From Natrialba hulunbeirensis JCM 10989 (GTDB lineage: Archaea > Halobacteriota > Halobacteria > Halobacteriales > Natrialbaceae), in assembly GCF_000337575.1 (NCBI RefSeq), contig NZ_AOIM01000036.1, positions 1 through 64,000 on the forward strand: a DNA stretch of 64,000 nt, read 5' to 3'. Positions 60,343 to 63,891 of this stretch are shown here, piece after piece (within the stretch, counting starts at the first letter, position 1; each line of letters opens with the position of its first letter). A program made the translations under genes and the position numbers. A model generated the notes under the pieces. The model was not told the origin of the DNA, did no database searches, and saw only the letters and a list, made by a program, of their open reading frames with translations.

Positions 60343-60579
60343 TCAGGCGTACGTCGACTCGAGATACTCGAGTATCCGTTCGGATTCGGCCATCGTCACG
60401 CCGTACTCGTCGTCGACGACGACCGGTACCTGGCGCTGGCCCGAGACGCGCTTGACTTCGTTTCGCTTCGAGTGTAATCCCTCGACCCAGACGCTCTCGA
60501 ATTCGATATCGAGTTCCTCGAGTTCGTCGACGATGATCTCACAGAACGGACAGCCCTCGAGTCGGTAGAGTGTAACCAT
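60343..60579 (-). CDS. Glutaredoxin/GST-N-like redox protein
   Basis: The 78-residue thioredoxin-fold protein starts VTLYRLEGCPFCEIIVDELEE, with the redox-active CPFC pair at residues 10-13. It ends with a cis-Pro motif (QRQVPVVVDDEYGVTMAESE) that binds thiol substrates. It is the small haloarchaeal type that may use a low-molecular-weight thiol such as gamma-glutamylcysteine. It is divergent from the redoxin-like gene next to it. No thioredoxin reductase is nearby. Confidence 0.9.
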   Translation of the reverse strand: MVTLYRLEGCPFCEIIVDELEELDIEFESVWVEGLHSKRNEVKRVSGQRQVPVVVDDEYGVTMAESERILEYLESTYA

Positions 60580-60699
60580 ACGCCCGCGTTCGTGGCGCGG
60601 TCCTAAAAGCGTAGGTGCAGTGTCAATCGGCTCCCGGCAGTTGCGAACGATAGCGTGGGGCGACCGGAGCTTTTTGTCACCCGCGGCCAACGTCAGGCC

Positions 60700-61182
60700 A
60701 TGGCACCGACCGAGGGCGATGTCGTTCCGAACTTCGAGGCCCCGCTGTGTGATGGAGAAACGTTCCGTTCGACCCCGCTTTCGGAGGCGCTTGGCCCACA
60801 CGGCGGCGTCCTCGTCTGCACTGGCTTCGCGTTCAGCGCAATCGCTCGAAACTGGTGGACGCGTCTCGTCCGCGCCGGCTGGGCAGAACTGGACGACGTG
60901 GCCGTCCTCGGCATCAGCCGCGACGGCCCCTACGCCCAGAACGAGTTTCTCCGCTGGCTCGGCAGTCCCGACGTCCGGTTCGTCGCCGACGTCGACGGTG
61001 CGGCGAGCGATGCACTCGAGTTACGCACGTCTCGAGATGGGATGGCGAACGTGTCGACGCCGTGGCGGGCGGCGGTCGTCGTCGATTCACAGCGGCGGGT
61101 GCAGTACGCGTTCGTCGCGGATGACTGGATTTCGCCGTTGCCGCAGGCGGAGATCGAGGCTGCGATCGATTCGTTGTCGTGA
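60700..61182 (+). CDS. Redoxin-domain protein lacking the peroxidatic Cys
   Basis: From ATG 60700 the 160-residue protein has the AhpC/TSA fold order: VVPNFEAPLCDGETFRSTPL at the N-terminus, VLVCTGFAFSAIARNWWTRL, VLGISRDGPYAQNEFLRWLG and a C-terminal RAAVVVDSQRRVQYAFVADD. In peroxiredoxins the active site is P-x-x-x-T-x-x-C; here the aligned segment FAFSAIA has Ala where Cys belongs. A peroxidase role is therefore unlikely unless the earlier VLVC Cys substitutes. It is divergent from a glutaredoxin-like gene. The in-frame leader before MAPTEG is not credible. Confidence 0.85.
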   Translation: MAPTEGDVVPNFEAPLCDGETFRSTPLSEALGPHGGVLVCTGFAFSAIARNWWTRLVRAGWAELDDVAVLGISRDGPYAQNEFLRWLGSPDVRFVADVDGAASDALELRTSRDGMANVSTPWRAAVVVDSQRRVQYAFVADDWISPLPQAEIEAAIDSLS

Positions 61183-61352: not shown

Positions 61353-61760
61353 ATGTCCCCTCCATCTTCGCCACCCTCCCCGCCGTCTGGTGACTCGTGG
61401 CCGACGGACGACTCGAGTACCCGCTCTCGCTCGTCGTCGCGGTCGAACAAGGGTGTTCCACTCGGACTGTGGATTATCGTCGGGATCGGTTTTCTCGGCG
61501 TGCTGGTCGGACTGTTCGCCTCGCTCGCACTCATCGGCGAGGGAGCAGGCGGCCTCGGGATGATCGTGCTCGCGCTGACCGCACTCGAGGCGGTCGTGCT
61601 CGTTGGGTTGCTCGGATTGCGCTACTGGGCACTTGTGGTCGCGCTCGTGGTCTACAGCTTCGGTGCACTGTTCGACCTGCTTACGGGTTCGTTGCTGGGG
61701 CTCATCGTGAGTATCATCATCGTCGGCTATTTGCTCTCGATTTCCGGGCGATTCGAGTGA
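61353..61760 (+). CDS. Membrane protein with a Ser/Pro-rich N-terminus
   Basis: From ATG 61353 the 135-residue protein begins with a Ser/Pro/Thr/Arg-rich soluble stretch (about 1-36). Three to four hydrophobic helices follow (about 38-58, 65-88, 92-108, 113-130). No family motif is recognised. The ATATATG context at the start supports a leaderless or short-leader message. Possibly a small transporter or channel subunit, but nothing supports a function. Confidence 0.6.
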   Translation: MSPPSSPPSPPSGDSWPTDDSSTRSRSSSRSNKGVPLGLWIIVGIGFLGVLVGLFASLALIGEGAGGLGMIVLALTALEAVVLVGLLGLRYWALVVALVVYSFGALFDLLTGSLLGLIVSIIIVGYLLSISGRFE

Positions 61761-61896: not shown

Positions 61897-63891
61897 TCAC
61901 CCCAACACGAACGACTGTAGCGAGTCGAGTGCGGAGTTGATGGCTGCGGAGAGGCTCGATGCGTTTTCGTTTTCGGCGTCGTCATCGTCATCGTTGCCGT
62001 TGTCGTCGTCGTCGTCACCAGCCTCGGCTTCGTCAGCCTCCTCAGCATCATCGTCATCAGCCTCGTCGGACGCATCGGAATCCGCCGCTGCGCCTGACTC
62101 ATCGTCACCGTTCGAACTGGCGTGGCCGCAGTTCGAGTCGTAGGACTCGACGAAGCTGCTCTCGTCGGATTCGGTCTGGAGCGTCGTGCGTTCGGAGTCG
62201 GCATCGGAGTCGCTGCGGGTGCTTTCCCGGTTGTCGACGTCGCTGTCACTGTCGTGCTGGTCGATGCTGTGCTCGCGTTCGCTCTCGTCGCTGCTCTCGC
62301 TGCGGTCGCTCTCGCTCAGGTCGCTGCTGGTGTCCTCGTCGCTTGCGGACTCGGTCTCGATATCGTTGTTCTCGACCGTATCGACACCCGTATCGCTCTC
62401 GCTGGCGGTCTCGCTCTCGGACTCGCTAGATTCGCTCAGGGTACTCTCGTCGAGGTCGCTCTCGTCGCTGTGCGTGCTCAGATCGCGTTCGCTCACGGTC
62501 CGGTCGCTCGAGACCTCGCTCTCGTCGAACTCGCTGCTCGACTGCTCGTTGTCGTTATCAGTGGTCTCCAGGCTGCTCTCGTCCTGCGTGCGCTCGCTGT
62601 CGGCGCTCGTGGTGTCGCTCTCGTCGCTTGCGGACTCGCTGTGGCTCCGGTCGCTGTCTGCGGAACTGGAGTCGCGCTCGCTCTCGTCGAAGGTGAGTTC
62701 GGCACCGTGGCGTTCGTTCTGGCTCGCGTCGAACTCGAGGTCGCCCTCTTCGGAGTGGTCGTGCTCGCTGTCAGCGCTGGTGGAGTCCTGCTGGGAAACG
62801 TCACGCTCGCTGGCGTCGCGTTCGGCTTCGTCCGTGGAGTGCTCGCTGGATTCGCTTTCGCTGTCACTGGACTCGCTGTCACTCTGCGTGTACTCCTCGG
62901 AGTCGCTGTCGCTGGTGCTTTCGATCCGGTCGAAGGTATCGCGGTCGTTTTCGCCACGATCGCTCTCGTCGCGTTCGTCGTGATCGGACTCGCTGTCGCT
63001 CTCAGAGAGTTCGCTCTCGTCGCTCACACTCTCCTCGGACTCGCTGTCGTACTCATCGAGTGACTGCTCGCTGAAGTCGCGGTCCGACGCGTCGAGGGTC
63101 TGTTCGTCGTGATCGCTTTCCTCGAGTTCACTCTCGTTTTCGCTCGTATCGATCGAGTGGGTGTCGCGCTCGCTCACCTCGAGATCGGCATCGTCGTAGT
63201 CGATGTCGGTCTCGCTGCGGTCGCGTTCGCTCTCGTCTGATTTGCTGTCGCTCTCGTCAGTGGTCACCTCGCTGTCGCTCGCGCTCGACTCGCTCTCGTC
63301 GGACTCGCTGTCACTCGCACTCGCGTTCTCCTCGCTGTGCGTGCTGTCGCGGTCTGCCGTGCTGTCGTCGCGCTCGCTGACGGTGCGGTCCACGTCGCTC
63401 TCGCTTTCGTCGAGTTCGACATCAGCGTCGTCGATCTCGCTCTGGCTCTCCGAGCGTTCTTCCTCGTCGACGGTGCTGACGTCGTAGTCGCTGCTCGAGT
63501 CGGATTGCTCGTCGCGGTCGTTCACCTCGGAACTGCTCTGATCGGACTCGGTACTCGAGTCGCTCGCGCTGTCGCTGTCGCTCTGTTCGCGCTCGGACTC
63601 GTCGACAGTGGTGGAACTGTCGTTCTCGCTGTCGAGTTCACTCAGTTCGCTTTCGGTGCTCGATTCGCGCTGGTCGCTACTGGTTCGTTCTCGGTCACTA
63701 CTACTGTCGCTCTCGCTGTCTTCTGCTTCGTCGACGGTTGCCGTACTGTCGTCGACGGATTCGCCTTCGTCACAGCGGTCGTCAACCTGCATGGCTGCGC
63801 CGGGGCTCGCACCGGCGACGCCGCTAACGCCGACGGCGCTGGCAAGCAACAGGAGACCGACTACCGTGATGACTGTCAGTTTTCGGGTCAT
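61897..63891 (-). CDS. Exported Ser/Asp/Glu-rich low-complexity protein
   Basis: The 664-residue protein begins with a typical Sec signal (RKLTVITVVGLLLLASAVGV, cleavage near AGASPGA). Almost the whole mature chain (about 40-590) consists of irregular repeats of Ser with Asp, Glu and Arg, such as SERDxS, SDSES and DESE. A C-terminal Asp/Asn/Ala-rich stretch and a short amphipathic end (LSAAINSALDSLQSFVLG) follow. Two Cys only, in DDRCDEGE near the N-terminus and YDSNCGHASS near the C-terminus. It has no recognisable domain. It could be a surface or matrix polyanion binding cations; function is inferred from composition. Confidence 0.8.
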   Translation of the reverse strand: MTRKLTVITVVGLLLLASAVGVSGVAGASPGAAMQVDDRCDEGESVDDSTATVDEAEDSESDSSSDRERTSSDQRESSTESELSELDSENDSSTTVDESEREQSDSDSASDSSTESDQSSSEVNDRDEQSDSSSDYDVSTVDEEERSESQSEIDDADVELDESESDVDRTVSERDDSTADRDSTHSEENASASDSESDESESSASDSEVTTDESDSKSDESERDRSETDIDYDDADLEVSERDTHSIDTSENESELEESDHDEQTLDASDRDFSEQSLDEYDSESEESVSDESELSESDSESDHDERDESDRGENDRDTFDRIESTSDSDSEEYTQSDSESSDSESESSEHSTDEAERDASERDVSQQDSTSADSEHDHSEEGDLEFDASQNERHGAELTFDESERDSSSADSDRSHSESASDESDTTSADSERTQDESSLETTDNDNEQSSSEFDESEVSSDRTVSERDLSTHSDESDLDESTLSESSESESETASESDTGVDTVENNDIETESASDEDTSSDLSESDRSESSDESEREHSIDQHDSDSDVDNRESTRSDSDADSERTTLQTESDESSFVESYDSNCGHASSNGDDESGAAADSDASDEADDDDAEEADEAEAGDDDDDNGNDDDDDAENENASSLSAAINSALDSLQSFVLG

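Follow-up and report, generated by a model that had tools for sequence, protein, structure and literature searches.

A proline-free, putatively exported polyanion family of constant length in Natrialba hulunbeirensis and other archaea, several of them haloalkaliphiles

Low-complexity proteins rich in serine and aspartate occur on the cell surface of Gram-positive bacteria as Ser-Asp (SD) repeat stalks and serine-rich repeat adhesins, which consist of true repeats of variable length. Among haloarchaea, the exported surface polyanion halomucin of Haloquadratum is a single giant protein. In alkaliphilic Bacillus, acidic surface polymers are believed to draw protons in and keep hydroxide out at high pH; these include teichuronopeptide, an acidic polypeptide bound to polyglucuronic acid, and the acidic protein SlpA, which is held by SLH domains (PMC5938343). 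The wall of the haloalkaliphile Natronococcus is likewise an amino-acid polymer, glutaminylglycan, a glycosylated polyglutamine of about 60 gamma-linked monomers rather than an exported gene-encoded protein (PMC4243693). The nearest described case that we found of a kept length with changing sequence is that of the synaptonemal complex proteins, coiled coils of eukaryotic meiosis whose length is maintained by selection against insertions and deletions while the sequence diverges (PMC8598163).

We analysed a stretch of 64,000 nucleotides from Natrialba hulunbeirensis JCM 10989, hereafter the window, with a focus on gene B, which encodes an acidic protein with a putative export signal (Table 1). 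The span and the 664 residues given in the original prediction were exact, and the gene lies on the minus strand. About 550 residues had been described as almost entirely Ser, Asp, Glu and Arg, and these four account for 71.1% of residues 41-587, or 78.4% when Thr is added. This core carries a net charge of -181 and contains no proline, no tryptophan, no internal cysteine and one lysine; histidine makes up 2.2%. Cys40 and Cys588 are the only cysteines in B, which bears out a single cysteine on either side of the core, but Cys588 is not terminal as had been supposed, since it precedes an acidic tail of 76 residues. Within that tail, the AlphaFold2 model placed a low-confidence helix at residues 647-662.

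Table 1. Coordinates of gene B, its segments and the linked genes
Feature	Position	Strand	Basis or remark
Gene B, acidic protein (putative export), 664 aa, ATG start	61897..63891	-	ORF; orthologs 93% and 88% identical in two congeners; dN/dS 0.11-0.15 within Natrialba
Putative Sec signal peptide, residues 1-28 (MTRKL...VAGA)	63808..63891	-	Sequence; cleavage site judged by eye
Cys40 codon, N-terminal invariant cysteine	63772..63774	-	Invariant in 34/34 aligned members
547-residue core without proline, net -181, acidic alternation of 2.3-2.4 residues, constant length	62131..63771	-	
Cys588 codon, second invariant cysteine, 548 residues beyond Cys40	62128..62130	-	Invariant in 34/34
C-terminal tail of B: variable-length acidic linker and predicted final helix SLSAAINSALDSLQSFVLG	61900..62127	-	26-77 aa across B proteins
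TTTCCC-N5-TTCGTCTCCCGTTCTTAA promoter element with a TATA-like box about 50 nt ahead of the B start codon	63942..63970	-	Alignment of upstream regions
Paralog A, 586 aa, tandem, directly upstream of B, beyond the window	contig 64291-66051 (L004:4291-6051)		
ZnTM gene, next after A, beyond the window	contig 66615-67286		
C2H2 finger + TM helix + DsbA-like (CPFC) fusion, Natronorubrum thiooxidans	L037:12345-13157		Between two B genes; Thioredoxin_4 E 3e-23

The N-terminus was hydrophobic in all members of the aligned B/A family, with an AxA-like site by inspection. Cys40 lies about 12 residues past the putative cleavage site of B, in the motif DDRCD, and no lipobox cysteine was found at that site; a lipoprotein identity was therefore rejected. 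Inspection of the aligned C-termini of the B/A family revealed no LPXTG wall anchor. It had been suggested that Ser-rich repeats might be glycosylated, a proposal that the analysis did not support, as the core holds only three N-x-S/T sequons and no glycosyltransferase was noticed at the locus. The suggested resemblance of B to a matrix protein rather than an enzyme may hold and is consistent with the analysis.

As judged by sequence comparison, B belongs to an undescribed family. No matches to protein B were obtained in Pfam, NCBIfam, PHROGs or the PDB, nor to its paralog A in Pfam, NCBIfam or PHROGs. A scan of IMG/VR returned no viral relatives, and a viral origin was rejected on that basis. 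A tblastn search of a plasmid collection also gave no matches, a result that the low-complexity filtering of BLAST makes uninformative. The family was detected in 17 of 125 genomes of the host's archaeal family, in 6 of 29 genera, and was arranged mostly as tandem paralogs (A+B or A+B+B). One further genome from another archaeal family (G417) carries it; the search beyond the host's own family used the 43-residue A tail, a query to which loci with B alone are invisible. Hosts include Natrialba chahannaoensis, Natrialba sp. SSL1, Natronorubrum thiooxidans, N. texcoconense, N. bangense, Natronococcus pandeyae, Halostagnicola sp. A-GB9-2 and one metagenome-assembled Natrialbaceae genome. The Natronorubrum bangense locus (L040, NZ_CP031306.1) is carried by a plasmid of 828 kb, which makes transfer from genus to genus a possibility.

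Gene A and the ZnTM gene linked to it both fall outside the 64,000-nt window. The C-terminal tail of A (L004:4294-4440) is of the 38-39 residues typical of A proteins, a constant length unlike that of the variable B tail; its resemblance to an SLH domain (Pfam PF00395) was weak (E 0.014, 15.8 bits, below the cut-off of 20.8). ZnTM comprises a C2H2 finger, one transmembrane helix and an ectodomain that is predicted to be folded (pLDDT 87.7). When orthologs were called at 150 bits or more, ZnTM was found in 16 of the 17 genomes with the family and in none of the 108 genomes of the same archaeal family without it (Fisher p 3e-19). The single exception (G113) has its B gene on an 8.6-kb contig of a fragmented assembly. 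Two ectodomain cysteines, in CFHFH and WHxHC, were present in 17/17 linked ZnTM proteins and in 0/16 unlinked paralogs, including second copies from the same genomes (Fisher p 9e-10, with shared ancestry ignored). The linked ZnTM has gained this pair, which is specific to the linked copies. The two cysteines flank one predicted hairpin, so an internal bridge or a metal site is possible.

A DsbA-like protein joined to the same type of finger and transmembrane helix is encoded at one locus, in N. thiooxidans (Table 1); by domain content it is an archaeal membrane-anchored oxidoreductase with a zinc finger. The metagenome-assembled locus has a thioredoxin-like ORF with no clear CxxC (L050:7414-7848) between ZnTM/A and B, for which the Pfam Thioredoxin match (E 0.001) was below the cut-off. 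The prediction of an exported polyanion with two important cysteines gained support from the hydrophobic N-terminus and AxA-like site, from the invariance of both cysteines, from the co-conserved membrane protein with its acquired cysteine pair and from the DsbA-like protein.

The promoter pattern of gene B, with at most one mismatch allowed, occurs once in the genome. Related elements precede B and most A genes in other species, and none was evident upstream of the Natrialba A genes. ZnTM genes of most species are preceded by a related element, CCGATTCTTCGACC..TTCATA. The element upstream of B, A and ZnTM is an unusual one, with CTTCG directly ahead of the TTCTTAA-type box. This conserved element may mark a small regulon. 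Frequent neighbours of the loci were BAT/HTH_10 regulators, found near most of them, a DUF4352 lipoprotein and an S8 subtilase. Within the window, a glutaredoxin/GST_N-like protein with CPFC (60343-60801, minus strand) and an AhpC/TSA-like protein (60655-61182, plus strand) are encoded close to B; both were rejected as partners because the neighbourhood survey showed them only at Natrialba loci. A 117-aa small membrane protein without a Pfam match (61407-61760, plus strand) is encoded convergently to gene B.

The frame proposed for B proved to be conserved in relatives, with identity reaching its highest values in the two congeners (Table 1) and standing at about 40-60% elsewhere. The dN/dS of 0.11-0.15 within Natrialba shows that the gene is under purifying selection. 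Distant B proteins were 45-47% identical when compared in register, versus 10-25% at other offsets and a compositional expectation of 18%. Both of the unconnected serine codon classes were used in 24 of 61 conserved serine columns.

Of the 22 B proteins, 21, among them the one from another archaeal family, had their two cysteines exactly 548 positions apart; in the exception the distance was 536. Because the spacing itself requires no alignment, its constancy is not an alignment artefact. A tree-based reconstruction of the B core yielded about 2,309 inferred substitutions and three alignment gaps, one of which altered the length. A cores had 9 gaps per 1,699 substitutions, and at the same loci there was one gap per 65 substitutions in the ZnTM ectodomain and one per 38 in the DUF4352 neighbour. 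In contrast to the constant core, the tail past the second cysteine ranged over 26-77 residues in the same B proteins. The corresponding distance in A proteins was mostly 541-551, with a core of 504 residues in the N. hulunbeirensis A and 529 in that of G417, and A is less strictly sized than B. The N. hulunbeirensis A has lost about 45 residues from its core in-frame, with the reading frame and both cysteines retained.

The original prediction had also spoken of loose repeats, which the analysis did not confirm: only short, imperfect tandem arrays turned up. Profile self-comparison of the B family revealed no long unit, its sole signal being one weak 24-residue pair at lag 106, and a tandem-repeat origin was rejected on these results. 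Instead, the core showed an alternation of acidic residues. The family profile gave a spectral peak at 2.32-2.42 residues with a power of 20, and the acidic autocorrelation was positive at lags 2, 5, 7, 12 and 14 and negative at lags 1, 6, 8 and 13. In 110-residue windows the power rose to 27 mid-chain and was low toward both ends, with the alternation weak over roughly the first and last 100 residues. For most members it exceeded the power seen in Markov simulations of order 1-4, and it was borderline in the N. hulunbeirensis A. Serine and arginine were roughly opposite in phase to the acidic residues, partly because of mutual exclusion with acid.

The cores of 35 proteins, 19,069 residues in all, contain no proline, although 6,080 of their codons are one base from a proline codon and 1,707 are one transition away. 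Opposite TCN serines, the aligned residues (99 pairs, whose shared ancestry means that events are not independent) included 751 Ala, 594 Thr and no Pro. Three neighbouring proteins of the window contain 3.8-4.7% proline.

A twisted beta-strand completes a turn about every 2.3 residues, and the acidic spacing of 2.3-2.4 is as on one face of such a strand. No period of 3.5-3.6 residues was present among the top acidic peaks and no core helix appeared in the model; a single alpha-helix of the ER/K type and a coiled coil were accordingly rejected. AlphaFold2, run on B with 34 family sequences, produced no core fold (pLDDT 36.7, pTM 0.17), a result to be read with the caveat that the predictor struggles with shallow alignments and with halophilic sequences of low complexity. 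This null result conflicts with the order suggested by the length, the lack of proline and the periodicity; either the prediction fails here or the constraints have another cause.

Set against the systems described at the outset, B would share with the Bacillus polymers the character of an acidic surface polymer, but its chain is encoded by a gene, lacks proline, has a fixed length and cysteines at its ends, and is related in sequence to nothing known. The likeness to glutaminylglycan is that of an amino-acid polymer in a haloalkaliphile, and Natronococcus is also a genus that carries the B family. With SD-repeat and serine-rich repeat proteins B has in common low-complexity Ser/Asp sequence and, it would seem, a place at the cell surface; an identity with them was rejected, since it has no repeat unit, a core of nearly invariant length with invariant cysteines, and no LPXTG. 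Halomucin would resemble B by description, as an exported surface polyanion of haloarchaea, and is set apart, again by description only, as a single giant protein. The core of B differs from synaptonemal coiled coils in lacking a main 3.5-3.6 period and in not being predicted helical. The novelty lies in the family and its combination of constraints, which matches no tested known kind; the role may prove to be of a known sort.

We tentatively propose, as a possibility that falls short of being probable, that B is part of a ZnTM-A-B surface system of structured polyanions of set length, tied by disulfides, in mostly haloalkaliphilic archaea. A and B are homologous, putatively exported polyanions, each with a predicted signal peptide, a cysteine, a proline-free acidic core of set length, a second cysteine and a type-specific tail. 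In molar salt the core, far from being a random coil, would form an extended chain of twisted-beta-like order with regular hydrogen bonds, one acidic face and one Ser/Arg face. A and B chains would lie side by side in register, with their end cysteines disulfide-tied to one another, to the ZnTM pair in the membrane, or to both. Long chains of B joined end to end by disulfides, as originally suggested, are possible, and the data fit bonds to ZnTM, or bonds that join A to B, just as well. Such an assembly would form a layer or fibre on the cell surface, fixed in length and very strongly negative, and could keep cations and protons close to the membrane at high pH. The analysis demonstrates the family, the selection on it, the constant spacing, the lack of proline, the acidic alternation and the linkage to ZnTM with its cysteine pair; export, beta-like order, the register of A with B, disulfides, surface location and a role at high pH are inferred. 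Rather unlikely, in our estimate, is the stronger claim of a novel class of structural protein, in which a polyelectrolyte devoid of proline would form an ordered, set-length, beta-type fibre in molar salt, with two homologous chains in register, disulfide-stapled at both ends to a dedicated membrane protein and misread by predictors as disorder.

That the B ORF is a non-coding accident of low-complexity sequence, as the long shadow ORFs on the opposite strand might suggest, has next to no chance of being correct given the low dN/dS, the full-length orthologs in several genera, the invariant cysteine pair and the conserved promoter element. A doubtful but real competitor is that A and B are disordered polyanionic brushes, tethered by their cysteines and holding water and cations, whose length is fixed only because the height or charge of the brush has to be. 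The absence of a predicted fold, the net charge and a composition typical of disorder all agree with such brushes, as does the protection of alkaliphilic Bacillus by acidic wall polymers (PMC5938343). However, disordered linkers usually, if not by strict definition, tolerate indels and proline, whereas the core has its three gaps per roughly 2,300 substitutions, is free of proline, and is conserved in register at individual positions.

Two further explanations centre on ZnTM. It could be a transmembrane sensor whose C2H2 finger, on the cytoplasmic side, signals the condition of the surface layer, with A and B as ligands through the cysteine pair and the BAT/HTH_10 neighbours as output. Its finger, transmembrane helix and predicted folded ectodomain would suit that role, as would the regulators near most loci and the related promoter elements; but BAT regulators are abundant in haloarchaea, and the reuse of the same finger-TM stalk for a DsbA-like enzyme in one cluster suggests that it is an anchoring module. 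We regard a sensor as improbable. Still less probable is a system for metal handling, in which the acidic chain with its histidines and the His/Cys cluster of ZnTM would bind Cu, Zn or Ca. The conserved motifs HxHG, FHFH and WHxH of ZnTM point in this direction, and the best though weak match of its model is the beta-grasp-like putative metal-binding protein 3u7z (E 0.07, TM-score by target 0.54-0.58), a weak fold likeness with no sequence match to a protein that lacks the finger and the transmembrane helix. Against it, histidine accounts for 2.2% of the B core, and most of the His cluster is shared with unlinked ZnTM paralogs; what is specific to this system is the cysteine pair alone.

A genome that we take to be that of Natrialba magadii, an alkaliphile (G003), appears to lack the family, which would therefore not be needed for alkaliphily. 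Several hosts are described as haloalkaliphiles, some from soda lakes, in the titles of studies cited by PMC5487899 and PMC6423904, and a link of the family to alkaliphily is a lead only. By analogy, the literature suggests that the B family may function as acidic wall polymers do in alkaliphilic Bacillus (PMC5938343).

Proteins of acidic, low-complexity sequence are commonly written off as disordered and unconstrained, and yet the core of B is under very tight length control. An ordered chain would represent a type of structure that functions in high salt alone and is missed by predictors; a disordered one would offer a clear example of a chain without structure whose length and proline content are under selection. 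How cells build a surface at high pH is a long-standing question, for which acidic wall polymers have been invoked in alkaliphilic Bacillus. ZnTM, A and B together form a defined set of genes that can be deleted to learn how soda-lake haloarchaea do so.
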